Origin: Catellatospora sp. IY07-71
GTDB taxonomy: Bacteria > Actinomycetota > Actinomycetes > Mycobacteriales > Micromonosporaceae
NCBI RefSeq assembly: GCF_018326265.1
Contig: NZ_AP023360.1
Coordinates: 6,109,501-6,173,500 of the forward strand
DNA length: 64,000 nucleotides
Reading direction: 5' to 3'
Part shown: positions 37,033 through 49,975 of the stretch, piece after piece
Numbering within the stretch: the first letter of the stretch is position 1
Layout: every line of letters starts with the position of its first letter
The notes under the pieces: model-generated
Told to the model about the DNA's origin: nothing
The model's input: only the letters and a program-made list of their open reading frames with translations
Databases searched by the model: none
Translations under genes and position numbers: made by a program

Positions 37033-38382
37033 TCAGGCGATGAGGCAGGCTGTGCCGTTGAGCGTGAATGAGGTCGGCTTTCCGGCGTTACCGGTGTGGT
37101 TCGCCTGGAAGCCGATGCTGATGGATCCGCCGGCGAGGATGCCCGCGTTGTAGTTCACGTTCCGGGCGGTCACCTGCCCCGAGGCGGGTGAGTACGTCGC
37201 ATTCCAGCCGGAGGTGATGACCTGCCCGCTGGGCAGGGTGAAGACCAGGGACCAGCCGTTGACCGCGGCGTTGGTGGTGTTGGTGATCGTGAGGTTCTCG
37301 ACCAGGCCGTTGCCCCACGCATCGATGGCGCTGCTGACCCGGCAGGAGCCGGTGCCGGGCGGCGAGGACGGGCTGGGGGACGTGGACGGGCTGGGGGACG
37401 TGGACGGGCTGGGCGGCGTGCTGGGGCTGGGCGGCGTGCTCGGACCGGTGGTGGTCAGGCCGAAGAACGCGACGGCAGCCGCGGCCATGCCGCTCGACGG
37501 CAGGCTGTGACCAGCACCCTGGATGCTGAGCGCCTCGACCCGCACGGTGCCCGACGAGTCGGCGAAGCGGCGGCGGTTCCAGTTCGCCTGCGGGGTGTCG
37601 GCGGAGGTGGGGGTCTGGCTGAGGCCGTGGACGTTGGTCCACTGCTCGACCGATTCCTGCAGCAGCGAGTACGGCACGAGGGTGTCGCTGGTGCCGTGCC
37701 ACAACTGCACCCGCGGCCGCGTTCCCGTGAAACCGGGATTGACCTGTCGCACCGCGTCACCCCACTGCTGCGGGGTCCGGTTCATGCTGCCACCGGTGCA
37801 CTGGCTGCTTCCCGGCGGGTAGTCGGCCGCGTTGGCGAAGCAGTTGAACGGCACGCCCATGAAGGACGCTCCGGCCTTGAACCTGTCCGGGTAGAGGGCG
37901 AGCATGTGCTGGGTCATCATGCCGCCGGAGGAACTGCCCGTGGCGAAGACGCGGTTCTGGTCACCGCCGTACTGGCGCGCGGCATAGTCGACCATCGACA
38001 TGATCGAGACGGGATCGCTGCCGCCGTCGCGGCGCTTGGCGGCGTCCGACCAGGTGTCGAAACACCTGCCGAAACCAGCCTCCTGCATGGCGCTCGGGTA
38101 GATGACGATGAAGCCGTACTGGTTGGCCAGCGAAGCGAACTCGCTGCCGGAGTAGAAACCGGGGCCGGAGCCCCCGCAGCCGTGCATGGCCACCACGATC
38201 GCGGGGTTGGCCGGCCGGGAGTCCGGAACGTAGACGTGCATGCGCATGCCGCCCGGGTTGCTGCCGAAGTTGGGCACCTCGACCAGCGAGGCGGCGAAGG
38301 CGGGCTGGATCGCCGGGATCGTGACCCCGGCCACCGCCAACGAGGCGGCGACGGCGAGCAGCAGCTTTCGTTTGATCTTCAT
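37033..38382 (-). CDS. Secreted PHB-depolymerase/feruloyl-acetylxylan-type esterase with CBM2
   Basis: A 449-residue secreted enzyme. A signal peptide ends at about residue 30 (IPAIQPAFA). The catalytic domain (about 32-320) is the PHB-depolymerase-like esterase fold, with MHGCGGSGPGF, nucleophile Ser in GSSSGG, an Asp in SDTLVPY and His in GAGHSLPS. A Pro-Ser-Thr linker of repeated PSPST units (about 325-350) leads to a family 2 carbohydrate-binding module (SCRVSSAIDAWGNG to NGTAC) with the two end cysteines. It probably removes acetyl or feruloyl groups from plant cell-wall xylan while bound to cellulose. AAGGAG precedes the ATG. Confidence 0.85.
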   Translation of the reverse strand: MKIKRKLLLAVAASLAVAGVTIPAIQPAFAASLVEVPNFGSNPGGMRMHVYVPDSRPANPAIVVAMHGCGGSGPGFYSGSEFASLANQYGFIVIYPSAMQEAGFGRCFDTWSDAAKRRDGGSDPVSIMSMVDYAARQYGGDQNRVFATGSSSGGMMTQHMLALYPDRFKAGASFMGVPFNCFANAADYPPGSSQCTGGSMNRTPQQWGDAVRQVNPGFTGTRPRVQLWHGTSDTLVPYSLLQESVEQWTNVHGLSQTPTSADTPQANWNRRRFADSSGTVRVEALSIQGAGHSLPSSGMAAAAVAFFGLTTTGPSTPPSPSTPPSPSTSPSPSTSPSPSSPPGTGSCRVSSAIDAWGNGLVENLTITNTTNAAVNGWSLVFTLPSGQVITSGWNATYSPASGQVTARNVNYNAGILAGGSISIGFQANHTGNAGKPTSFTLNGTACLIA

Positions 38383-38839
38383 GGTGTGTCTCCTTGGTTC
38401 CCCGCACTGTCGGGAAGGCCGCGGAGCCGCGCTGGCGCGACGTGCCCACGGCAAGCCGGTCGGCGGCTGAGGGGGTGGTGGCCGACGTGGTGGCGGCTGG
38501 CCCGCTGATGCACCGGGCCGGCCATGTCGCCCGATCGCCCGCACGTGACCACGCGCAGCACAGTTCCGCCGTGTTCTGGACTGCGACTGGTCCCCGACGC
38601 CCGGTTCCGCGGCCATCGCATGACATATAGAGTCCCTCGTGGACCAAAAACTGTCAATCGATGGAGGACAATAACTGAGGCCTGCGACCGGTCAGCCGGT
38701 TCGCAAGCTGCGAGCATGCCGGGTGGGCGACGTGTCGGCGACGTCGGCGGCGATCGCGCCACTGCGGAATTCCGCGGTCGATCCGACGGGACCACAGCTG
38801 TCGAGGGTCGGCGCTCCCCTTGAGAGCCGGGAGCGCCGA
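38383..38839. other. Upstream region of the esterase gene
   Basis: About 457 bases without a credible gene. The segment 38625-38680 is conspicuously A/T-rich. Read leftward it has a perfect TTGACA (38657-38652) but only a weak -10 at the right distance, so a promoter there is possible but unproven. Confidence 0.4.
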
Positions 38840-39810: not shown

Positions 39811-41081
39811 GGGGTCGTTGCAACACGTGGTTGGTTGTCTAGGCCGCGAGCAGTGTACGCAGGCGCTCGGCTGGGGTTTCCCAGCCGAGCGTTTTGCGTG
39901 GTCGGCCGTTGAGTTCGACGGCGACGGCGTCGAGGTGGTCACGGCTGTGGACGGATAGATCGGTTCCCTTGGGGAAGTACTGCCGCAGCAGGCCGTTGGT
40001 GTTCTCGTTCGAGCCGCGCTGCCATGGGCTGCCCGGATCGCAGAAGTAGACCGGAATGTCGGTGGCCACGCTGAAGGCGTGGTGGGCGGCCATTTCGGAT
40101 CCCTGGTCCCAGGTGAGGGAGCGGACCAGGTGGGCCGGTAGGGCTTGCACTGTCGCCTGGAGGGCGTCGCGCATGTGTTCGGCGCTGCGGCCGGTGGGCA
40201 GGTGGACGAGCATGACGTAGCGGGTGGAGCGTTCGACGAGCGTTCCGATGGCCGAACCGCCGTCCTTGCCGATGATCAGATCGCCTTCCCAATGGCCGGG
40301 CACGGCACGGTCCTCGACCTCGGCCGGCCGCTCGCTGATCATGACCATGGGGTGCGTGAACCGTGGCTGGCGGCTGGCCGCCTGCCGGTGCGGCTTGCGA
40401 CGGGCACGGCCGGTGCGCAGCGCACGGGTGAGTTCGCGGCGTAGCTCGCCTCGGCCCTGAACGTAGAGGGCCTGGTAGATCGTCTCGTGGACCACGTGCA
40501 TCTCCGGCCGCGCGGGGAATCGTCTGCGCAGAGCCTGACAGATCTGTTCCGGGCTCCACCGTTTGTCCAGGTGATCCTGGATGAAGTCCCGCAGGGCGGC
40601 ATTCTCTCCGATCTTGCCGGGCTTGGGGCGTGGTCGGCGGCCGTCGGCCCGGGCCTGAGCGGCATACGGTCGGTACTGGCCGTTACCCGGATGCCGATTA
40701 CGGCGGATCTCCCGGCTGATGGTGGACGGGCTGCGGCCGAGCTCTGCGGCTATCGCCCGCACCGAGGCCTTGTCCCGCAGCCGGTCGGCGATGTGGAGAC
40801 GATCAGCCTCCTGCAGATACCTCGACGACGCTCCGGGCGCCCGCTCTGCCTGAGCGGGCGCCCGGAGCCGGTTGGGGGCCATCCGGCCGTTGCGCCACTC
40901 GCGTCCGGTCCGTTCATGAACACCGACGCGTCGGGACGCCTCCCTGTTGCCATAGCCCTGCTGCACGAGCCGGAAGTATTCCTCCCGTTCAGCACGCAGC
41001 TTCTTCGGCCCCTGCGCCGTACGGTCAGTACGGATCTTGAAGTCCATCGCACCCCTTGAACTGGGGTGTTGCGACAACCAC
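39811..41081 (-). mobile_element. IS30-family insertion sequence
   Basis: About 1.27 kb containing one intact IS30-type transposase. Imperfect inverted ends can be seen: left GTCGTTGCAACAC (39814-39826) against right GTTGTCGCAACAC (plus strand 41067-41079 in reverse), 11 of 13 matching. Target duplications could not be fixed by eye. It separates the DUF1206 gene from the haem-protein operon, ending about 80 bases after its last gene. Confidence 0.75.
39839..41047 (-). CDS. IS30-family transposase
   Basis: A 402-residue transposase that seems complete. An N-terminal helix-turn-helix (REASRRVGVHERTGREWRN) and a second one (SVRAIAAELGRSPSTISREI) are followed by the DDE catalytic core: Asp in GHWEGDLI, Asp in LTWDQGSEM and Glu in NENTNGLLRQYFPKG. 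ATG41047 is chosen over an upstream TTG that would lie in the inverted end; GGGG just upstream can serve as ribosome site. Probably still active. Confidence 0.9.
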   Translation of the reverse strand: MDFKIRTDRTAQGPKKLRAEREEYFRLVQQGYGNREASRRVGVHERTGREWRNGRMAPNRLRAPAQAERAPGASSRYLQEADRLHIADRLRDKASVRAIAAELGRSPSTISREIRRNRHPGNGQYRPYAAQARADGRRPRPKPGKIGENAALRDFIQDHLDKRWSPEQICQALRRRFPARPEMHVVHETIYQALYVQGRGELRRELTRALRTGRARRKPHRQAASRQPRFTHPMVMISERPAEVEDRAVPGHWEGDLIIGKDGGSAIGTLVERSTRYVMLVHLPTGRSAEHMRDALQATVQALPAHLVRSLTWDQGSEMAAHHAFSVATDIPVYFCDPGSPWQRGSNENTNGLLRQYFPKGTDLSVHSRDHLDAVAVELNGRPRKTLGWETPAERLRTLLAA

Positions 41082-41159: not shown

Positions 41160-42347
41160 TCAGAAAGGCGAGGGCGCCACACGTGTGACAGGCCCACGGG
41201 CTCGTCCGTTCGGCGCGGGTTCGTGGGGTGTGGTGCCGTTGGTGTTCTGGCGTAGTTGGGCGAGTTGCTGGTAGACGGCTCGGCGGGCGCGGTTCTGGTT
41301 GCCCAGTGGTCGGTGTGCTTCGAGTGCGTGCCATGGGTTGTAGCGGAGCCGGTCGGCGAGGTGGAACTGTTCGGCGGGGTCGATGGTCTGCTGGGGGATG
41401 GTGAGGGTGGCGACGGTCTGGTGTGGTGCGAGGTGTTCGGGCCAGATGACGGTGGCGTTCTCGATGGGCATGCGGTGTGGGTCGGTCTGGAGTTGGACGT
41501 CGAAGGCGAAGTGGGCGTCGGTGTGGTGGAGGGTGTGGATGAGGGCTTGTTGGAGGTAGTCGTCGGGTGGGTTCCAGCCGACGGCTGTGCGGGTGTCGGT
41601 GGTGGGTGTGAGGCGGTATTTCATGGCCTGGTCGGGGCCGAGCAGGTAGGGGACGCAGCTCCAGTACGGGGTTTCGAGCGGGCTGGTGTGGGTCCTGGCG
41701 TACAGCGCCTGCATGATCAGGTCCAGCAGGTGGGGCGAGCGCGGGTTGAGGAAGTAGCGCAGGGCAGAACCGGCGAAGACCTGCTCGCGGTAGGCGAGGT
41801 TCTCCGCCAGGGTGGCTGTGGTCGTGGTCGGCGCGCTCAGCGCGGTGAAGTCCTGCGTGTGCTGCTCGTCGTCGAGCAGCTTGCGGCCGGGCACGCCCAT
41901 CAGCTTGACGGCGATGGACAGGATGCCGTTGTCGCGGATGTCGGGCGGGCTGAAGGGGCCGGGCCCGGCGAACCGCACGCACGCGGGGTAGGTGCGCGGC
42001 TGGGCGAGGACACCGTGGCGTAGCCGGCTCGGCAGGCCGCTGTGGACGCTGAAGGAGCCCTGGACGACCGCGTACGTCTTGGTGTTGCCGGCGCGCAGGA
42101 ACGACCCGGGCTCGTACTCGCGTTTCATAAGCCGGGCCAGGACGTCGATGATCGCCTTGGTGTGCTCCTGCTCGTCCGGTCCGATCCTCTCCTCGGCGAT
42201 GCCCAGCTGCTCGTCGCGTCGGCTCGCGTTGACCAGCCACTGGACGGCGTCCTGCAGGGGCTGGCGCAGGGTGGCGTCGAACGCGGGCCGCACATAGGGG
42301 TCGATCTTGCGGAGGAACGCCAGCCCGGCGTCGACGACCTGGTTCAT
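41160..42347 (-). CDS. Catalase-related haem protein, copy 1
   Basis: A 395-residue member of the catalase-related superfamily (small, without the catalase C-terminal domain), like the haem enzymes that act on fatty-acid hydroperoxides (allene oxide synthase-type). The proximal haem-ligand motif RxxxY is likely Arg355-x3-Tyr359 (NRARRAVY). Where catalases have the distal His, the aligned motif is RAGNTKTYAV, giving Asn88. It is therefore unlikely to be a true catalase. ATG42347 overlaps the stop of copy 2 (ATGA). It ends the leftward operon; the last 20 residues differ from copy 2. Confidence 0.78.
   Translation of the reverse strand: MNQVVDAGLAFLRKIDPYVRPAFDATLRQPLQDAVQWLVNASRRDEQLGIAEERIGPDEQEHTKAIIDVLARLMKREYEPGSFLRAGNTKTYAVVQGSFSVHSGLPSRLRHGVLAQPRTYPACVRFAGPGPFSPPDIRDNGILSIAVKLMGVPGRKLLDDEQHTQDFTALSAPTTTTATLAENLAYREQVFAGSALRYFLNPRSPHLLDLIMQALYARTHTSPLETPYWSCVPYLLGPDQAMKYRLTPTTDTRTAVGWNPPDDYLQQALIHTLHHTDAHFAFDVQLQTDPHRMPIENATVIWPEHLAPHQTVATLTIPQQTIDPAEQFHLADRLRYNPWHALEAHRPLGNQNRARRAVYQQLAQLRQNTNGTTPHEPAPNGRARGPVTRVAPSPF
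41217..41718 (-). repeat. Conversion tract in catalase-like copy 1
   Basis: This 502-base block is nearly identical (four differences seen) to 42377-42878 in copy 2, at a constant offset of 1160. Base use inside is unusual: many TG/GT steps and a different third-position pattern from the rest of the genes. A second identical block of 121 bases is at 41828-41948. Confidence 0.8.
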
Positions 42348-43543
42348 CGGGTGGTTCTTCCTGGCTCGGCTGCGGTGGGTTCGTGGGGTGTGGTGCCGTT
42401 GGCGTTCTGGCGTAGTTGGGCGAGTTGCTGGTAGATGGCCCGGCGGGCGCGGTTCTGGTTGCCCAGTGGTCGGTGTGCTTCGAGTGCGTGCCATGGGTTG
42501 TAGCGGAGCCGGTCGGCGAGGTGGAACTGTTCGGCGGGGTCGATGGTCTGCTGGGGGATGGTGAGGGTGGCGACGGTCTGGTGTGGTGCGAGGTGTTCGG
42601 GCCAGATGACGGTGGCGTTCTCGATGGGCATGCGGTGTGGGTCGGTCTGGAGTTGGACGTCGAAGGTGAAGTGGGCGTCGGTGTGGTGGAGGGTGTGGAT
42701 GAGGGCTTGTTGGAGGTAGTCGTCGGGTGGGTTCCAGCCGACGGCTGTGCGGGTGTCGGTGGTGGGTGTGAGGCGGTATTTCATGGCCTGGTCGGGGCCG
42801 AGCAGGTAGGGGACGCAGCTCCAGTACGGGGTTTCGAGCGGGCTGGTGTGGGTCCTGGCGTACAGCGCCTGCATGATCGCGTTGAGCAGGCCCGGGTAGC
42901 CGGGGTTGAGGAAGTACAGGATGGGGATGCCCGCCGCCAGGTGCCGCTGCAGCTGAACGTTGGCCGCGACGTCCGGTGTGGTGAACATCGGCGCGCTCAG
43001 CGCGGTGAAGTCCTGCGTGTGCTGCTCGTCGTCGAGCAGCTTGCGGCCGGGCACGCCCATCAGCTTGACGGCGATGGACAGGATGCCGTTGTCGCGGATG
43101 TCGGGCGGCGCCGAAGGCCCCGGTCCGGACAGCCTGACCCACGCGGGATAGGTTCGGGACTGCGCGAAGACCCCGTGCCGAAGGTGTCCGGGAAGGCCGT
43201 CGTGGACGGTGAACTCGCCCCGCACGACGCCGTAGGTCTTGGTGTTGCCGGCCCGCAGCATCGCACCCGGCGGATACTTCGGCAGCGTGACAGCCTCGAG
43301 CAGGTCGGCGATCGCCGCGGCGTCGGCTGCCTCGCCCGGTCGGATGCTCTCTTCGGCGATGCCCAGGTGCTCGTCGCGTCGGCCCGCGTTGATCAGCCAC
43401 TGGACGGCGTCCTGCAAGGGCTGGCGCAGGGTCGCGTCGAACGCCGGCCGCACGTAGGGGTCCGCCCTGCGGGTCAGCTGGACGGCCGCCATGACGGTGT
43501 CGTTGAGACGTCGCTGCCACCAGGGGGCCGCGCCGGATGTCAC
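42344..43543 (-). CDS. Catalase-related haem protein, copy 2
   Basis: A 399-residue paralogue of copy 1 with the same signatures: Asn100 in RAGNTKTYGV at the expected distal position, and Arg367-x3-Tyr371 (NRARRAIY) as likely proximal haem ligand. The first 90 residues and the stretch around residues 210-245 differ clearly from copy 1, while other parts are the same, so the two may have distinct substrates with shared haem sites. GTG43543 overlaps the DyP stop (GTGA). Confidence 0.78.
   Translation of the reverse strand: MTSGAAPWWQRRLNDTVMAAVQLTRRADPYVRPAFDATLRQPLQDAVQWLINAGRRDEHLGIAEESIRPGEAADAAAIADLLEAVTLPKYPPGAMLRAGNTKTYGVVRGEFTVHDGLPGHLRHGVFAQSRTYPAWVRLSGPGPSAPPDIRDNGILSIAVKLMGVPGRKLLDDEQHTQDFTALSAPMFTTPDVAANVQLQRHLAAGIPILYFLNPGYPGLLNAIMQALYARTHTSPLETPYWSCVPYLLGPDQAMKYRLTPTTDTRTAVGWNPPDDYLQQALIHTLHHTDAHFTFDVQLQTDPHRMPIENATVIWPEHLAPHQTVATLTIPQQTIDPAEQFHLADRLRYNPWHALEAHRPLGNQNRARRAIYQQLAQLRQNANGTTPHEPTAAEPGRTTR
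42377..42878 (-). repeat. Conversion tract in catalase-like copy 2
   Basis: Partner of 41217-41718, about 99% identical. The matching second tract is 42988-43108. Confidence 0.8.
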
Positions 43544-44916
43544 CGCGACCGCTCCGGAGACGACAGGTAGTGCAGCGCGCGCATGCCGGGCATGAAGAAG
43601 TAGGCCCCGCCGCGGGTGGAGACGAACTGCGGCAGTTCGCGGTGGCGCCGGCGCAGGGGCAGCGCCTGCTCGGTGAACGTGGTGCCCGGCACCCGGGCAC
43701 CGACCAGCGGGTCGGGATCGGCATAGAGCCCGTTGAAGTTCGGGTTGTTCAGCCATGTGTGCTGGACGAACTCGAACTGGCGTGCCAGGTTCGCCCCGAT
43801 GCACAAAAAGTGCAGGCCGACCTCGTCGTGGCCGTTCTCGTCCGGGATCGGACCGTAGACCCGGCCCCGGCGCAGCAGCCGGTGGCGCCGGTTGAGCTGC
43901 TGCGCGCGGGCGGGGCTCAGGTCGGTGTTGAGCGAGTCGCGGGGATTGGCGCGGCGGATGTGCGCTCCGATCGGGCAGAGCAGGCCCTGGGGGTCGGCGG
44001 CCCGGTAGGCGAAGTCGTTCTCCTTGGCGAGTTCCTCGTGGTCGGCGTCGGGTGAGAGCACCAGGGGCGCGCCGCTGGGCCAGCGGCCGACCATCTTCGC
44101 CGCGAGCAGCGCCCGGCGATGGGGGTCGGCGCTGCCGTCCGGCTGGCGGGTGGCCTCGTCGAGATAGGCGCTGAAGGCGTCGACGTCCTGGCGCAGCTGG
44201 CGCAGGACCAGGTAGCTGCCGTTGCGGCCGAGGTCCGCGCGGCCGGAGAAGGTCGGCAGGCCGGCCGTGTCGGGGCCTAGGGGCAGCAGTGGCCGGTCGG
44301 TCAGCAGGCCGTACTCGTTCTCGTAGCCCAGCAGGAACTCCCCGGCCCGCACGGGCGCCGGATCGGCGGCCGCCGCCGGGAGTCCTTCGAAGGCGGGCTG
44401 GGAGATGCCGTCGGCGAAGCCGAACGGCTCGCGGTCGGTGAGGGGGGCGGTGTCCAGCGTGGCGGTCTCGGTGAACCCGTGGCCGACCAGGTCGCGGCGC
44501 AGCGCCGTGGTCAGCCGGTTCAGCCGGGTCTGGGTCTTGGCCCAGGTCAGCACGGCCAGGTGCACCGGTGCCGTCGCCGGGCCGCCCCACCGCCAGTGTC
44601 CCGGCGCGTTGGTGTCGATGTCGCCGAGCAGGAGGCTGCGGTCGGGGTCCGTGATCCCGGTCGCGAACTCGGTGGCGAAGCCGGATTCGGGTGCGGTCGA
44701 GACGCCCAGCTTCGCCAGCCCGTCGGCGGTGAAGGCGAGGTTGCAGGCGGCGTCGGTCGGGCGGACCTGGCCGCAGGTCACGCGGGGCAGCAGCCGGCGA
44801 AGGCTCGCCCGGGCGGCCTGCGGCCGATCGATGGCGAGCAGGTGGAAGCGCGCGGCCGGAAGTGTTCCGTATCCCCGGATGATCAGCCCTTGGATGTCGT
44901 CGAGTTCGAGTTGCAC
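43540..44916 (-). CDS. DyP-type haem peroxidase
   Basis: A 458-residue member of the dye-decolourising peroxidase superfamily. It has the GFADG (GxxDG) motif with catalytic Asp169, and the proximal haem ligand His319 in PIGAHIRRANPRDS, followed by the usual LRRGRVYG segment. DyP enzymes use peroxide to oxidise organic substrates. No Tat signal is seen, so it is cytoplasmic. GTG44916 is the start; codons upstream in frame lack resemblance. It is translationally coupled to the catalase-like copy 2, indicating joint function in peroxide or lipid-hydroperoxide chemistry. Confidence 0.85.
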   Translation of the reverse strand: MQLELDDIQGLIIRGYGTLPAARFHLLAIDRPQAARASLRRLLPRVTCGQVRPTDAACNLAFTADGLAKLGVSTAPESGFATEFATGITDPDRSLLLGDIDTNAPGHWRWGGPATAPVHLAVLTWAKTQTRLNRLTTALRRDLVGHGFTETATLDTAPLTDREPFGFADGISQPAFEGLPAAAADPAPVRAGEFLLGYENEYGLLTDRPLLPLGPDTAGLPTFSGRADLGRNGSYLVLRQLRQDVDAFSAYLDEATRQPDGSADPHRRALLAAKMVGRWPSGAPLVLSPDADHEELAKENDFAYRAADPQGLLCPIGAHIRRANPRDSLNTDLSPARAQQLNRRHRLLRRGRVYGPIPDENGHDEVGLHFLCIGANLARQFEFVQHTWLNNPNFNGLYADPDPLVGARVPGTTFTEQALPLRRRHRELPQFVSTRGGAYFFMPGMRALHYLSSPERSR

Positions 44917-44957
44917 GGTGACGGTGGTCCTTTTCCGTGGTCCGGGGCGGTGTACGC

Positions 44958-46226
44958 CTAGAGCAGCGCGAGCCATGCCTGTGCCTCGGCCGGGCTCGAC
45001 TGCCCGAGGAGGCCGGCGCGGATGCGTGCGTTGGTCTCGATGTTGTGGGTGGTGAGGTTCTCGTACGCGGAGTACCACACGTGCGTGCGCAGCTGGTGGG
45101 TGCGCAGGTAGTTCTTGAAGGCCTGCTCGTCGGTGGCTCCGTCGCCGACCAGCCAGCGGGTGCGCGGGTAGCCGAGTCCGTTGCTGAAGACGGCGTTGAG
45201 GCCCCACGCGACCTTGTCGATGAACTCGTCCATGTAGCTTTCGAGGCTGCCGTCGTAGTTGCTGGCGAACAGTGCCCGGCGTCCGTCGTCGAGGAGAAGC
45301 CACCGGGCGAAGTGGATCGTCCGGACGCCGGTGAGGCTTCCGCGGTTGTAGAGGTGCCGGACCCCGTAGTCCAGAGCGGCCAGGGCGCCGGTCAGCGTCA
45401 CCTGCCGGAACCAGCCCGGCTTGACGAATCCGATCGCGGTCAGGGGGCTCTGCGCGGCGAAGTCCTCGCCGCGGGACAGCTCGCGCAGGCTCTGCGGGTC
45501 AGGGCGCTGCTGGTGGGGGACGTCATGGGTCTCATACCAGCGCAGCAGGGCCGCCCACAGCGGGGCCGCGGCGGCCGCCAGCGGCGCCAGGGCCAGGGTC
45601 AGGGCGGGTACGCCGACCTGGTGGAGTGCTTCGCCCAGCCGCCAGCCGAGGCTCGGGCCGTCCGGGGGCGACTGCGCGAAGGACAGGTCGGGGCGCGTCT
45701 TCACGTGCTCCTGGACGGCGGCTCGGATGTCGAGCGCCGGCATGAGCGCCAGCCGTGGGCGGTCGCGGTCCAGGAAGTCCTCGATGGCCTCGCGGAGCAG
45801 GGCCTCCTGCTGGATCTGGGTGAGCCCGCGTCCCACGGTGTTGACGTAGTAGGCCGCGGTCGGCAGCGTGTGCGCGTGCAGCCAGGCGATCCGGTCTGCC
45901 GCGCTGTCGACGCGGTATCCGTCGCAGCCGGCGAAGAGCCGGTCCAGGCCGGCCGTCGCCTTGTCGACGAGTTCGGCGATGTGCGCCCGCGCCGGCGCGT
46001 CCACCTCGCACAGGTAGAGGATGCTGGCGCTGATCGTCTGTCCGTGGATGTCGAGCGCCTGCGGCATCAGCAGGATCCGGGCGAAGTGCACGCCGCCCAG
46101 GTCCGGGAACGGGATCAGGTCGTGCATGGTCCGCTTGCGGCCGATCTCCGACAGCATCTCGTCGAGTTCGAGGAACCGGGCGGCGGAGATCTCCGCCTGG
46201 ATGGTGAGGGACTCCTGGTGGGGCAT
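44958..46226 (-). CDS. Unknown protein of the peroxidase operon (long form)
   Basis: A 422-residue soluble protein without a recognised domain. It has a hydrophobic stretch near residues 185-205 (VPALTLALAPLAAAAAPLW) that might be a membrane-associated helix, and a paired architecture: FARILLMPQALDIHGQTISASILYLCEVD near the start resembles IHFARWLLLDDGRRALFASNYDG later, as if two similar domains. GGAGG sits 6 bases before ATG46226. Its placement with DyP and catalase-like genes implies a role in the same process. No haem motif was seen. Confidence 0.6.
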   Translation of the reverse strand: MPHQESLTIQAEISAARFLELDEMLSEIGRKRTMHDLIPFPDLGGVHFARILLMPQALDIHGQTISASILYLCEVDAPARAHIAELVDKATAGLDRLFAGCDGYRVDSAADRIAWLHAHTLPTAAYYVNTVGRGLTQIQQEALLREAIEDFLDRDRPRLALMPALDIRAAVQEHVKTRPDLSFAQSPPDGPSLGWRLGEALHQVGVPALTLALAPLAAAAAPLWAALLRWYETHDVPHQQRPDPQSLRELSRGEDFAAQSPLTAIGFVKPGWFRQVTLTGALAALDYGVRHLYNRGSLTGVRTIHFARWLLLDDGRRALFASNYDGSLESYMDEFIDKVAWGLNAVFSNGLGYPRTRWLVGDGATDEQAFKNYLRTHQLRTHVWYSAYENLTTHNIETNARIRAGLLGQSSPAEAQAWLALL

Positions 46227-46254
46227 GGCGTTCCTCCGTGCGGTGCGGTCAGGC

Positions 46255-46701
46255 TCAGTGCGCGAACGTCAACGTGAAGTTGAATATCTTGGCGTTGTCC
46301 CAGAACACGATGCCGAGATAGACCGACGGGCTCACCAGGCGCATCTCGTCGCGGATCCAATGCGCGATCAGCGACGTCCTCGAATAGTCGAGGACGATCG
46401 ATTCCCTGCCGTCGAACAGGCTCGTTCCCCGATAGACTTTCGCCCGGACGGCACGGACGCCTATCGGGGACACCCGATTAAGCAATTCGCTCCGTTCCGG
46501 ATCGAACACCTTGCCCTGCCACGCGAACCTGTGAATGAGTTTGGCCGCTGTCGCCGATGCCGTGGTGCCGGGCGCGACGATGACGGTCCCGGTCCCCTCA
46601 CCCTGGGGAAACCCGCCGGTCGGGCTCTGCCGGAACAGGTCGTCGAGCTCATTCTGCGACATGGTGAGCAGACGGTCGGCGTCCAGCCTCACGTGAGTCA
46701 A
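46255..46701 (-). CDS. Unknown protein at the head of the peroxidase operon
   Basis: A 148-residue protein. TTG46701 is taken as start because GGAGG lies exactly 6 bases upstream. The N-terminal part is Asp/Gln-rich (MSQNELDDLFRQSPTGGFPQG); the rest is a beta-rich domain with KVYRGTSLFDGRESIVLDY and SPSVYLGIVFW. It recalls small lipocalin-like or membrane-interacting proteins but no family can be named. It is the first gene of the leftward operon. Confidence 0.6.
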   Translation of the reverse strand: MTHVRLDADRLLTMSQNELDDLFRQSPTGGFPQGEGTGTVIVAPGTTASATAAKLIHRFAWQGKVFDPERSELLNRVSPIGVRAVRAKVYRGTSLFDGRESIVLDYSRTSLIAHWIRDEMRLVSPSVYLGIVFWDNAKIFNFTLTFAH

Positions 46702-46826
46702 TGCGCACCTCCGCCAGAAGTCGTACCGAGATTAACCCGCACGCCGCACGTCTGCGCGCATTACCCGAGTCGCGGCGCGCCCGCCGACGGGAATGTGCGT
46801 GTTGTCGACCGCCCGGCGGCATTCCA
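46702..46826. promoter_or_regulatory. Divergent promoter region of the two haem-protein operons
   Basis: About 125 bases separate the TTG start of the leftward operon from the ATG of the rightward one. Both promoters must lie here, or just inside the 5' end of the dioxygenase gene if its later start is used. An A/T-rich island (GAGATTAACC near 46728) stands out. No clear palindrome. Confidence 0.5.
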
Positions 46827-48743
46827 ATGGCAAGCTGTGTACGGAGTCGAGGCGCGCTGCAAAGGAGCCGGTCGCTGAACGGGACACATGGGTCTGGCGG
46901 TCCGGACCAGAAGCTGAAGGAGACGTCGTCGGCCCCGTGGCCGCTGTCGGCGTTGGGTGAGGCCGCCGACCGGCTGGCGGTGTCGATCGACCGGTCGGTG
47001 GGCTGGCACCGGCTGCCCACCGCGCTCGGCCTCGCCGTGCTCGCGGGCATCCGTGGCGTGCTGCGGCGCAGGAATCTTCACGACACGAGCCACTTCCCGG
47101 CGTGTGACCTGCCGCCGCTGGAGCCGCCGGACGAGGTCCACCGGATCGCGCGGACCGCCGACGGCAGCTACAACGACCTCGACCAGCCGCGCATGGGCAT
47201 GGCGGGCTCGCGCTTCGGACGCAACCTGCCGCATGAGGCGACGTTCCCCGAAACCGCACCTATGATCTTCACGCCCAACCCGCGCGTGATCAGCCAGGAG
47301 CTGCTCCGCAGGCGCGAGTTCGTGCCCGCCACTTCGGTGAACAACCTGGTCGGGGCTTGGCTGCAGTTCATGATCCGGGACTGGTTCAGCCACGGCCGGG
47401 GCGTCCTGGACGACCCGTGGATCATCGAGGTGGCCGCCGACGACCCGTGGCCGGGGCAGCGACCGCTGACCGTGCCGCGGGTGGCCGCGGACCCGACCAG
47501 GCCGGCCGGATCAGACGACCTCCCGCCGACCTTCGTCAACCACCACTCGCACTGGTGGGACGCCTCGCAGCTGTACGGCAGCAGCAGGGCGGAGCAGCTG
47601 CACCTGCGGACGATGTCCGAGGGCAAGCTGAAGGTCCCGGTCAACGGAAGGCACACCGCCGCCGACGGGACGGACCCGGCGACCGTTCCCGGGTTCTGGC
47701 TCGGCCTGGCCATGATGCACCACCTGTTCATCCTGGAGCACAACGCGATCTGCGACCGGCTCCGCACCGTCCACCCGGACCTGTCCGACGAGCAGCTGTT
47801 CCAGCGTGCGCGACTGGTCAACGCAGCGCTGATCGCGAAGATCCACACGGTGGAGTGGACGCCGGCCGTCGTCAGCCATCCGACGACGGTGATCGGGCTG
47901 CGCGCCAACTGGTACGGCATCGAGGGCGAGACCGCTCAGCGCATGTTCGGCCGCATCAGCGACAGCGAGATCGTCAGCGGCATCGTCGGAGGCAAGCAGG
48001 ACCACTTCGGCGTGCCGTTCGCGTTGACCGAGGAGTTCGTCGCCGTATACCGGATGCACCCGCTCATCGCCGACGACTGGGAGTTCCGCTCCGTCAACGA
48101 CGACGCGCTGCTGCAGGAGGCGACCTTCCCGCAGCTGGCAGGCCCGCACACCTACGACGTACTGGGCAAGCACACCCTGGCCGACCTGTTCTACTCGTTC
48201 GGGATCTCCCACCCGGGTCTGGTGAGCCTGCACAACTTCCCCCGCTTCCTGCAGGAGTTCGAGCGTCCCGACGGTCAGCTCACCGACCTCGCGGCGACCG
48301 ACATCCTGCGGACCCGGGAGCTGGGCGTGCCGCGATACAACGAGTTCCGCCGCATGCTGCACCTCCCGCCGGCCAAGGACTTCACCAGCCTGACCGACAA
48401 CCCCGCCTGGGCGGTCGAGCTGCGCCGTGTCTACGGCGGCGACATCGAGAAGGTCGACCTCATGGTCGGGATGTACGCCGAGCCCAAACCAGCCGGATTC
48501 GCCTTCAGCGACACCGCGTTCCGGGTGTTCATCCTCATGGCATCACGCCGCCTGAACAGCGACCGGTTCCTCACCGACGACTTCACACCGCAGGTCTACA
48601 CCCAGGCCGGCCTCGACTGGATCAAGAACAACACCATGCTGACGGTGCTGGGCCGCCACCTGCCCGAACTGATCCCGGCCACCAGCGACGTCGACAACGC
48701 GTTCGCGCCCTGGACCCGCACGACCGGCGAGCACGCCCGATGA
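46827..48743 (+). CDS. Alpha-dioxygenase-family haem peroxidase (fatty-acid oxygenase-like)
   Basis: A 638-residue protein of the animal/plant haem peroxidase-cyclooxygenase superfamily, closest in pattern to plant alpha-dioxygenases: WHRLPTALGLAVL near the start, KIHTVEWTPAV, GLRANWYGIEG and TEEFVAVYRMHPL. In YRMH, Tyr408 and His411 match the catalytic Tyr and proximal haem His (Tyr-x2-His). The distal His position is Arg184 (QFMIRDW, against HDW in plant enzymes); its spacing to Tyr408 (224) matches that known for the family. ATG46827 is used; AAAGGAG followed by an in-frame CTG at 46875 is an alternative start. Its product would be a 2-hydroperoxy fatty acid. Confidence 0.8.
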   Translation: MASCVRSRGALQRSRSLNGTHGSGGPDQKLKETSSAPWPLSALGEAADRLAVSIDRSVGWHRLPTALGLAVLAGIRGVLRRRNLHDTSHFPACDLPPLEPPDEVHRIARTADGSYNDLDQPRMGMAGSRFGRNLPHEATFPETAPMIFTPNPRVISQELLRRREFVPATSVNNLVGAWLQFMIRDWFSHGRGVLDDPWIIEVAADDPWPGQRPLTVPRVAADPTRPAGSDDLPPTFVNHHSHWWDASQLYGSSRAEQLHLRTMSEGKLKVPVNGRHTAADGTDPATVPGFWLGLAMMHHLFILEHNAICDRLRTVHPDLSDEQLFQRARLVNAALIAKIHTVEWTPAVVSHPTTVIGLRANWYGIEGETAQRMFGRISDSEIVSGIVGGKQDHFGVPFALTEEFVAVYRMHPLIADDWEFRSVNDDALLQEATFPQLAGPHTYDVLGKHTLADLFYSFGISHPGLVSLHNFPRFLQEFERPDGQLTDLAATDILRTRELGVPRYNEFRRMLHLPPAKDFTSLTDNPAWAVELRRVYGGDIEKVDLMVGMYAEPKPAGFAFSDTAFRVFILMASRRLNSDRFLTDDFTPQVYTQAGLDWIKNNTMLTVLGRHLPELIPATSDVDNAFAPWTRTTGEHAR

Positions 48744-49975
48744 ACCGGCGTAGCGGCAAGGAACTCATCGGCATCGCGGTGGCCGGAGCCGGTGCCCGGG
48801 GAGCCTACGAAGCCGGCGTGCTGTCGGTGCTGCTACCGGCCATGGAGGAGTTCGACCAGCGTCCGACCGTGTGGATCGGCACCAGCGTGGGTGCCGTCAA
48901 CGCCGCGCTGTTCGCCTCGCTGGCCCACCTGCCCGCCAAGGAGGCTGTCGACGTGGCGCTGGACAGGTGGCGCCAGGTGCGACCGGAGGACGTGTTCCAC
49001 GCGCCGCTGTCCAACAGCGTGCGCACCGTGCTGCGATACCTCGGCGAGGTCGCCGGCACGGGGGCCCGCCTGCACAGCCTGCTCGACACCGCGCCGCTGC
49101 GCACGACCGTCGAATCGTGGATGGACTGGCCGCAGCTGCACCGCAACACCCACGCCCGCAACGGCCCGATCGACGCCGTGGGCGTGTGCGCCACCGGGTG
49201 CGGCACCTACCGCACCGCGATGTTCGTCGAGGGCCGGCTCGCCGGCAAGCTGCCCGCCGCCGACCACGAGCGAGGAGTCGACTACAAGAAGACCTCTCTG
49301 CGCCCCGAGCACATCATGGCGTCGGCCGCCATCCCGGTGGCGTTCCCGCCGGTCTGGATCGACGACGAGGCAGGTGGCCCCGGCGGCTGGTATCTCGACG
49401 GCGGGATCCGGCTCAACGCCCCGCTCAAACCCGCCATCGCACTCGGCGTCGACAAGCTGGTGGTCGTGGCCACGTCGCCGGCGTTCAGCTCGCCCGCGAT
49501 GCCGCCCGCACGTCCGGCCGAGCGTCCCGACATCTTCGACGCCGCGGGCGACTGGCTCCACGCGGGCCTGGTCGACCGGATGATCGAGGACCTGCGCACG
49601 CTCAGCATCGTCAACCAGATGGTGCCGCAGAAGGACGACGCCGCCGCCAAGGCCGCCGGGGCCGACGGCAGCCGCAGGCGCCGGGTCATCCCCTACATCT
49701 TCGCCGGCCCGGTGCAGGAAGGCGAGATCGCCGCACTGGCCAGCGACGCGTTCAACATGCGGTACGGCCGCGGACCCCGGTCCGGGTGGGGCCTCAACAT
49801 CAGGCTGCTCAACCGCCTCCTCGGCGGCCGTGCCGCAAGCCGGGGCGAACTGTTCAGCCATCTCTTCTTCGAGCGGGAGTTCGTCGAGGCCGCCATCGAA
49901 CTCGGAGCCGCCGACGCCTGGCGTCTGCTCGCCACCACCCGCGAGGGGCTGCCCTGGCGGACCGGCACGCCGTGA
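48740..49975 (+). CDS. Patatin-like phospholipase
   Basis: A 411-residue patatin-family lipase with the oxyanion motif GAGARGAYEAG, nucleophile Ser49 in GTSVG and catalytic Asp220 in DGG (LDGGIRLN). These form the Ser-Asp dyad that releases fatty acids from phospholipids. ATG48740 overlaps the dioxygenase stop (ATGA), so lipase and dioxygenase are made together. This coupling suggests the lipase supplies free fatty acid to the dioxygenase. No secretion signal. Confidence 0.88.
   Translation: MNRRSGKELIGIAVAGAGARGAYEAGVLSVLLPAMEEFDQRPTVWIGTSVGAVNAALFASLAHLPAKEAVDVALDRWRQVRPEDVFHAPLSNSVRTVLRYLGEVAGTGARLHSLLDTAPLRTTVESWMDWPQLHRNTHARNGPIDAVGVCATGCGTYRTAMFVEGRLAGKLPAADHERGVDYKKTSLRPEHIMASAAIPVAFPPVWIDDEAGGPGGWYLDGGIRLNAPLKPAIALGVDKLVVVATSPAFSSPAMPPARPAERPDIFDAAGDWLHAGLVDRMIEDLRTLSIVNQMVPQKDDAAAKAAGADGSRRRRVIPYIFAGPVQEGEIAALASDAFNMRYGRGPRSGWGLNIRLLNRLLGGRAASRGELFSHLFFEREFVEAAIELGAADAWRLLATTREGLPWRTGTP

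Follow-up and report, generated by a model that had tools for sequence, protein, structure and literature searches.

We analyzed a 64,000-nucleotide stretch of the genome of Catellatospora sp. IY07-71 (contig NZ_AP023360.1, positions 6,109,501 to 6,173,500; G+C content 71%), referred to here as the window, which comes from an 8.6 Mb genome assembled as a single contig, and found that its locus at positions 41160-49975 contains a gene cluster whose existence as a conserved unit is practically certain. The fixed core of the cluster comprises two protein families, denoted here unk148 and unk422, and a dye-decolorizing peroxidase (DyP), usually together with a catalase-related protein, and its oxidizing front end is exchangeable. 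The best explanation of these features, to which we assign a probability of roughly 0.55, is that a membrane-associated core processes a lipid hydroperoxide or peroxide and is fed by an exchangeable oxygenase, in the window an alpha-dioxygenase assisted by a lineage-specific patatin.

A scan of 84,980 species genomes with unk422, using a query alignment built from dioxygenase-bearing loci, detected 194 relatives, of which the best 80 loci were examined; all counts out of 80 refer to these. In 80/80 loci the DyP gene adjoins unk422 on its downstream side and has the same orientation, with a median gap of 36 bp between the alignment ends. unk148 is present in 69-70 loci and the Asn-type catalase-related gene in 59-61 (the ranges correspond to two cut-offs), and an alpha-dioxygenase-type gene is found within ~10 kb in 55. 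A GMC oxidoreductase and/or a di-haem cytochrome c is encoded in 20 loci, 17 of which have no dioxygenase. Eight loci possess neither type of front end: in seven of them at least one flank is shorter than 8 kb, and L132, the eighth, carries a gene for an FAD-linked oxidase. Flanks of 8 kb or more on each side are available for 44 loci, of which 33 contain the dioxygenase, 10 only the GMC enzyme or cytochrome, and one neither. Judging by the record names, the cluster occurs in nine phyla: Actinomycetota (34 loci), Pseudomonadota (19), Acidobacteriota (9), Chloroflexota (6), Verrucomicrobiota (4), Cyanobacteriota (3), Thermodesulfobacteriota (3), Myxococcota (1) and Gemmatimonadota (1). Two loci with apparently interrupted genes, L078 and L085, were kept in these counts. 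As a control, 12 open reading frames (ORFs) flanking the locus in the window were searched for in the same 80 loci; eight were found in none, and the others in 1, 3, 4 and 8. The eight control ORFs with Pfam matches gave 0, 0, 0, 0, 1, 3, 4 and 8, and the remaining four, all at 0/80, had no Pfam match or lay outside the Pfam scan, so they may not be real genes.

A survey of 298 genomes from the same order provided a similar picture. unk422 matched in 25 of them, and besides the window copy seven relatives are near full length (44-52% identity). DyP and the dioxygenase accompany all seven, unk148 six, the catalase-related gene five and the patatin one (L066); the contig of another, L067, is cut short. 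The 10 other genomes of the same genus that were searched contain no full-length unk422; eight of them have frames of 187-230 aa resembling its second half with 26-31% identity. No relative of unk422 was confirmed in viral contigs. Distance correlations between the families (0.28 to 0.86), in which shared ancestry is uncontrolled, were not used as evidence.

Analysis of the locus itself (Table 1) reveals a divergent arrangement of seven ORFs, all present and all open. The minus-strand genes are transcribed in the order unk148, unk422, DyP, cat1, cat2, with stop/start overlaps between DyP and cat1 (GTGA, 43540-43543) and between cat1 and cat2 (ATGA, 42344-42347), and the two plus-strand genes overlap in the same manner (ATGA, 48740-48743). 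The preliminary description of this DNA, prepared from the sequence without database searches, had listed seven genes, 4-base stop/start overlaps linking the DyP and the two catalase-related genes, and translational coupling of the lipase to the dioxygenase; the seven genes are correctly placed, and all three overlaps are exact.

Table 1. Features of the locus and of its boundary in the window (window coordinates)
Feature	Position	Strand	Remarks
Transposase	39839..41077	-	HTH_38 and rve domains; adjoins the cat2 end; locus boundary
cat2, catalase-related haem protein 2	41160..42347	-	Tandem duplicate of cat1, same residues
Tract of cat2 near-identical to cat1	41281..41718	-	Coordinates converted by hand from alignment columns
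cat1, catalase-related haem protein 1	42344..43543	-	Asn100 in place of the distal His; proximal R367xxxY371 retained
Tract of cat1 near-identical to cat2	42441..42878	-	Coordinates converted by hand from alignment columns
DyP-type peroxidase	43540..44922	-	TIGR01413; catalytic Asp and proximal His conserved
unk422 (422 aa), core-defining gene	44958..46226	-	Predicted two-domain alpha+beta-barrel (ABM/SchA-like); hydrophobic segment
unk148 (148 aa)	46255..46701	-	Beta barrel, predicted to be calycin/lipocalin-like; start codon (TTG, 46701) uncertain
Alpha-dioxygenase-type haem enzyme (ORF)	46701..48743	+	PF03098, 4hhr/4kvj; divergent from the unk148 side
Patatin-like lipase	48740..49975	+	PF01734; ATGA overlap with the dioxygenase

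The front-end enzyme of the window matches PF03098 in Pfam with an E-value of 7e-101 and, in a search of PDB sequences, the plant alpha-dioxygenases 4hhr (1e-110) and 4kvj (3e-108) over approximately residues 94-672; alpha-dioxygenases clearly outrank other haem peroxidases such as lactoperoxidase (7e-22). Its ATG at 46701 is probably not the true start, since the divergent gene starts at an overlapping position and homology is seen only from around residue 92 onwards; the ATG at 46827 or the GTG at 46977 is likelier. In the numbering of the long ORF, the enzyme retains the radical Tyr450, the proximal His453, His382 and Arg617, the last two corresponding to His311 and Arg559 of alpha-dioxygenases, to which we ascribe a carboxylate-binding role, and has Arg226 in place of the distal His. 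The four retained positions are invariant in 70/70 readable rows of a 71-row dioxygenase alignment (L085, L121 and L134, with a short frame or a match of 61 bits, were left out), in which the distal position is occupied by Arg in 39 rows, His in 28, Lys in 3 and Trp in 1. The parts of a published survey of alpha-dioxygenases that we consulted also describe the distal haem His as only partially conserved (PMC8720084). In the dioxygenase tree, calculated without L041 (broken frame) and the partial L106 and L109, the difference between His and other residues corresponds to one change, and the window enzyme groups with cluster enzymes of Streptomyces. The idea that loss of the distal His tracks cluster membership was rejected, as stand-alone dioxygenases share the loss and it maps to a single change. 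Divergent long haem proteins of Pseudomonadota and other phyla, initially labelled "COXlike", turned out to be wrongly named, as a PDB search with one of them ranks an alpha-dioxygenase first, and they are counted here as alpha-dioxygenase-type.

Within the same family, dioxygenase matches were found in 26/200 genomes: the window's own, 19 with E-values up to 2e-126, and six partial ones (4e-6 to 1e-4); none of the 10 other genomes of the genus has one. In 8 of the 19 loci a catalase-related domain is located directly upstream of the dioxygenase. In seven genomes of the family (L034-L040) the N-terminal catalase-related and the C-terminal alpha-dioxygenase domains are joined in a single open frame (916 to 1247 codons), and an eighth intact joined frame is present in L160, from another family. 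An interrupted copy, L041, has a broken frame and was left out of the fusion counts. The joined frames are a gene-fusion link between both families and suggest substrate hand-over. Their dioxygenases (7 rows) form one clade, a lineage apart from the cluster enzymes, and, as read from the eight sequences, six have Gln at the distal position of the catalase-related part and two (L037 and L160) have His. The functional linkage postulated in the preliminary description is supported by the co-conservation of the neighbouring genes, the lack of which it had named as a refutation, and by these fusions.

The catalase-related proteins cat1 and cat2 have no Pfam or NCBIfam match at an E-value of 0.1, and their kinship to catalases is revealed by a chain of similarities: they match a smaller relative with 169 bits, this relative matches PF00199 with an E-value of 8e-8, and a profile built from cat1 and nine of these small proteins detects 3e4w (top match, 9e-9), coral allene oxide synthase and catalases. 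With the cat profile the best solved relative is coral allene oxide synthase (1u5u), at a weak E-value of 0.006 over 61 positions. In the register set by alignment with catalase 6rjn and A7, the distal position in 69 catalase-related rows (excluding four short pieces, two from L085 and one each from L118 and L149) is occupied by Asn in 59, Gln in 10 and His in none. The RxxxY motif (R367/Y371 in the window) is present in 69/69 rows and, from its spacing to the FNP landmark, would be the proximal haem ligand motif. Canonical catalase requires the distal His, so H2O2 dismutation by these proteins is unlikely, and its replacement would fit processing of a hydroperoxide better. Two such genes had originally been placed in the system; the family is indeed conserved, and the second copy proved to be a local duplicate. 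cat1 and cat2 share identical tracts of 211 and 226 bp, separated by one mismatch, plus a further 121-base tract, and their other 60-base blocks drop to 57-60% identity, a mosaic that points to recent tandem duplication or gene conversion. A second, smaller catalase-like protein adjoins unk148 in L111, L112, L114, L118, L133, L138, L142, L145, L146, L148 and L149; these smaller proteins have Gln at the distal position in 10/10 cases examined, and several of them start like lipoproteins, with a signal motif.

The DyP of the window matches TIGR01413 (NCBIfam, 1.8e-31) above the cut-off, the Asp of its GxxDG motif is present in 81/81 rows and the proximal His in 80/81, with one gap. In a single locus (L126) DyP and the catalase-related gene share one open frame. 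For unk422 and unk148, searches of Pfam, NCBIfam and PDB sequences gave nothing useful or significant. Both proteins were modelled with AlphaFold2 (AF2). The unk422 model has a predicted local distance difference test (pLDDT) score of 91, and its best fold matches, 9lmn and 9ltx, are weak (E-values 1-2e-4; template modelling (TM) score 0.36-0.42 for 9lmn); the nearest folds are polyketide ABM/SchA-like and decarboxylase proteins, at low TM. An HFAR motif occurs in both halves of the protein, and a hydrophobic segment is conserved in 54/54 sequences, so unk422 is probably membrane-anchored. The unk148 model (pLDDT 84) is most similar to the uncharacterized structure 4mve (E-value 9e-6, TM 0.62), and lipocalins appear only at E-values of at least 0.04. 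In 11 loci from Streptomyces and Amycolatopsis unk148 and unk422 share one open frame; there the unk422 match starts at residue 2-5, with the Met missing, and an internal alternative start is possible.

The catalytic motifs of patatins are GxSxG and DGG, and the window patatin (PF01734, 1.5e-26) has both, as GTSVG and DGG. The assignments made initially to the alpha-dioxygenase family, patatin and DyP are all borne out by these database matches. As a member of the conserved set, for which it had also been proposed, the patatin did not hold up: it occurs in 0/80 unk422 loci, and the genes formerly listed as unknown, not the lipase, form the core. Only four other relatives were found in the 298 genomes of the order (E-value < 1e-20); two have an alpha-dioxygenase within 2 kb (in L066, and in L160 as part of the joined frame) and two do not (L161 and L162), so the patatin is a real but occasional, lineage-specific accessory partner of the dioxygenase.

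All recognized front ends are oxygenases or oxidoreductases, the alternative ones being redox enzymes as well, and this suggests that the core consumes an oxidized lipid or peroxide. In the cytochrome group 14/21 ORFs have two CXXCH motifs, the rest being shorter pieces. The two-CXXCH proteins, mostly found at loci of Acidobacteriota and Verrucomicrobiota and often accompanied by a GMC oxidoreductase, have a sub-cutoff match to di-haem peroxidases and no PDB match at an E-value of 0.01, and are possibly related to fatty-acid di-haem peroxidases. Large proteins of this kind were observed in L117, L119, L121, L123, L125, L127, L130, L135, L137, L139, L141, L143 and L147. A role of the GMC enzyme (GMC1) as a fatty-acid photodecarboxylase is not favoured, as photodecarboxylases rank below choline oxidases.

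We infer the substrates, the reactions, their order and the product from the genes, their synteny, the joined frames, the residues and the predicted folds. In the lineage of the window, the patatin would release fatty acids and the alpha-dioxygenase would add O2 at C2, giving 2-hydroperoxy acids, which may also shed CO2 to give shortened aldehydes; with an alpha-dioxygenase as the front end, a 2-hydroperoxy fatty acid is the expected intermediate and a shortened aldehyde the by-product. unk148, as a barrel protein, and unk422, with its probable membrane anchor, might keep the lipid at the membrane or pass it on there, and the catalase-related protein lacking the distal His would rearrange, cleave or reduce the lipid hydroperoxide rather than dismutate H2O2. 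DyP may use the hydroperoxide or H2O2 to oxidize another compound, which unk422 perhaps binds. The scheme is weakest in three places: the activity of a dioxygenase whose distal residue is Arg, the reaction attributed to the catalase-related protein, and the parts played by unk422 and unk148.

Several observations weigh against this scheme. The catalase-related gene is absent from 19-21 of the 80 loci, many of the loci come from metagenome bins, and many of the 34 actinomycetotal ones are near relatives. Because the best 80 of 194 relatives were taken and the query was seeded from dioxygenase-bearing loci, the figure of 55/80 may overstate the dioxygenase link across the whole unk422 family. 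Four more distant unk422 relatives (34-38% identity or partial), namely L069 (37%), L070 and L071 from the order and L163 (34-38%) from the same family, keep the adjoining DyP, and the same tblastn search found no dioxygenase, catalase-related gene or unk148 beside any of the four. Conversely, 11 of the 19 dioxygenase loci of the same family have none of the window partner genes in the fetched 20 kb (in L030, 0.4 kb upstream only). The window dioxygenase has Arg instead of the distal His found in 28/71 rows, and unk422 and unk148 have weak fold matches. Coral allene oxide synthase, according to the consulted part of PMC5617202, retains its distal His67, so the loss of this residue is by itself no signature of lipid-hydroperoxide enzymes. 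Finally, 17/80 loci have a GMC enzyme and/or cytochrome c as their front end, so that the substrate common to all loci may be H2O2 or another compound that is not a fatty-acid hydroperoxide.

One alternative, which we regard as unlikely, is peroxide defence: the cluster would remove H2O2 and lipid peroxides, with DyP and the catalase-related proteins as scavengers and a dioxygenase that is incidental or supplies an alarm product. The usual co-occurrence of two peroxide-linked haem families, the intact DyP, and GMC front ends whose family includes oxidases that produce H2O2 (choline, aryl-alcohol and glucose oxidases) would agree with such a role, but the distal His is missing in all 69 catalase-related proteins, a peroxide-making oxygenase is encoded alongside in most of the loci, and the joined frames argue for passing a substrate between the two enzymes.

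We also consider it improbable that the substrate is a polyketide, terpenoid, polyisoprene-like compound or membrane lipid instead of a free fatty acid, so that the cluster would oxidize a specialized metabolite or polymer, with unk422 as a cofactor-free oxygenase or cyclase working with DyP on a substrate prepared by the front ends. The polyketide-type and decarboxylase folds nearest to unk422, and its adjacency to DyP in the four distant loci that have no dioxygenase, are consistent with this proposal. So are the paired CXXCH motifs of the cytochromes, also found in the fatty-acid di-haem peroxidases described, in the part of PMC4496055 consulted, as similar to the rubber oxidase RoxA. It is opposed by the invariant fatty-acid carboxylate-binding residues of the dioxygenase, and no polyketide synthase was found among 20 proteins scanned from the loci, which represent part of the 40 recurrent neighbour groups. 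That the copy in the window was acquired horizontally and has partly degenerated, with no present function, is very improbable: the lack of the dioxygenase and of full-length unk422 in the other genomes of the genus, the adjoining transposase, the duplication tracts and the lost distal residues could be read in this way, but the seven frames are open and tightly overlapping, the core residues are intact, and the distal substitutions are common to the clade and correspond to one change on the tree. An anti-phage role, in CBASS (cyclic oligonucleotide-based anti-phage signalling system) or another defence system, was rejected, as PADLOC detected no known defence family for six proteins and only a weak phospholipase match (20 bits) for the patatin, which also scored just 17 bits with NCBIfam CBASS_lipase, whose cut-off is 200.

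The explanation by a peroxide-processing core can be extended, tentatively and with odds below even, to a new bacterial system in which a membrane-anchored four-protein core (unk148, unk422, DyP and the His-less catalase) takes over oxidized lipid and makes a defined lipid product, with the alpha-dioxygenase, its divergent long form, or the di-haem cytochrome plus GMC enzyme as interchangeable front ends. If this were true, it would be a bacterial counterpart of the eicosanoid/oxylipin cascades distributed over nine phyla. Already the recurrence of the cluster, which links a fatty-acid oxygenating enzyme with a set of haem enzymes and two uncharacterized proteins, means that bacteria may own a modular oxylipin-type pathway.

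The transposase next to cat2, which we take to be IS30-like, was found in 0/80 unk422 loci; it is a boundary and lies outside the system. Within its gene lies a perfect inverted repeat (17 bp, loop of 5 bases; window 40830-40868), and beyond the gene, at 37033-38616, the window encodes an esterase of the polyhydroxybutyrate (PHB)-depolymerase type with a C-terminal cellulose-binding domain. Other recurrent neighbours are a weakly DUF4267-like gene (30 loci) and a DoxX gene (6 loci), neither query having matched the window, and a protein of ~1000 aa (L080:16230-19259) with relatives in 11 loci. Downstream of the cluster in L142 (14135-16177) we found a TIR-domain protein with HYDIN-type Ig domains, which groups with ORFs from L136 and L146.

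The open-access literature searched contains, as far as we found, no description of the five-family cluster, of the unk422-DyP unit, of the cat/alpha-dioxygenase joined frame or of exchangeable front ends, and no paper in it pairs an alpha-dioxygenase with a dye-decolorizing peroxidase. Bacterial alpha-dioxygenases are known as sequences and biocatalysts, and we met no account of their biological partners, which the cluster now supplies. The natural substrates of DyP peroxidases are an old question, and the cluster predicts two uncharacterized protein families, unk422 and unk148, that would act together with them. It also makes catalase-fold proteins lacking the distal His candidate hydroperoxide lyases or synthases. 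As the cluster is present in culturable streptomycetes, these predictions are directly testable.

Comparison with known systems reveals partial parallels. The window dioxygenase resembles the plant and cyanobacterial alpha-dioxygenases (4hhr and 4kvj) in full-length homology, the radical Tyr and the proximal and carboxylate-binding residues, as seen also from the consulted portion of PMC8720084, a paper whose main text does not use the term "gene cluster", and differs from them in having Arg instead of the distal His. The catalase-related proteins weakly resemble 3e4w, a small catalase-fold protein that is presumably a peroxidase of the MAP-2744c type. The Acidobacteriota-type cytochromes, which are not part of the window locus, share two CXXCH motifs and a similarity at the superfamily level only with the Pseudomonas oleate-diol synthase PA2077/PA2078, di-haem proteins that oxygenate fatty acids (PMC4496055, in part). 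In corals, fusions of catalase-related domains (allene oxide synthase, hydroperoxide lyase) with lipoxygenase are known from the sections of PMC5617202 consulted; they likewise tie a catalase-related domain to a fatty-acid dioxygenase, but the coral partner is a lipoxygenase and the coral enzyme has a distal His, where the window-type cluster proteins have Asn or Gln.

The nearest precedent is a pair from Nostoc punctiforme, in which a haem dioxygenase works with a catalase-related hydroperoxide lyase (PMC13049297, and a reference in PMC9579011, both consulted in part). The preliminary description had not recognized its candidate as a described bacterial system, which agrees with our searches as regards the cluster as a whole and not as regards such a pairing, already described for Nostoc. 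Both systems combine a haem dioxygenase of the cyclooxygenase (COX) superfamily with a separate catalase-related protein, the Nostoc lyase consuming the hydroperoxide; the two genes are in one cluster in the window, where they are not directly adjacent, and in many relatives. DyP, unk422 and unk148 are not mentioned for the Nostoc pair in the consulted parts of these two sources (PMC13049297 and PMC9579011). The enzymes also belong to different branches, the Nostoc dioxygenase being a 10S-dioxygenase (10S-DOX) of the COX/linoleate group and the window enzyme one of the alpha-dioxygenases. Brash et al. (2014) reportedly characterized the Nostoc proteins as a linoleate 10S-dioxygenase and a catalase-related 10S-hydroperoxide lyase. 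The COX/10S-DOX subfamily is marked by the motif YRWH; the window dioxygenase instead has YRMH and is closest to the alpha-dioxygenases.

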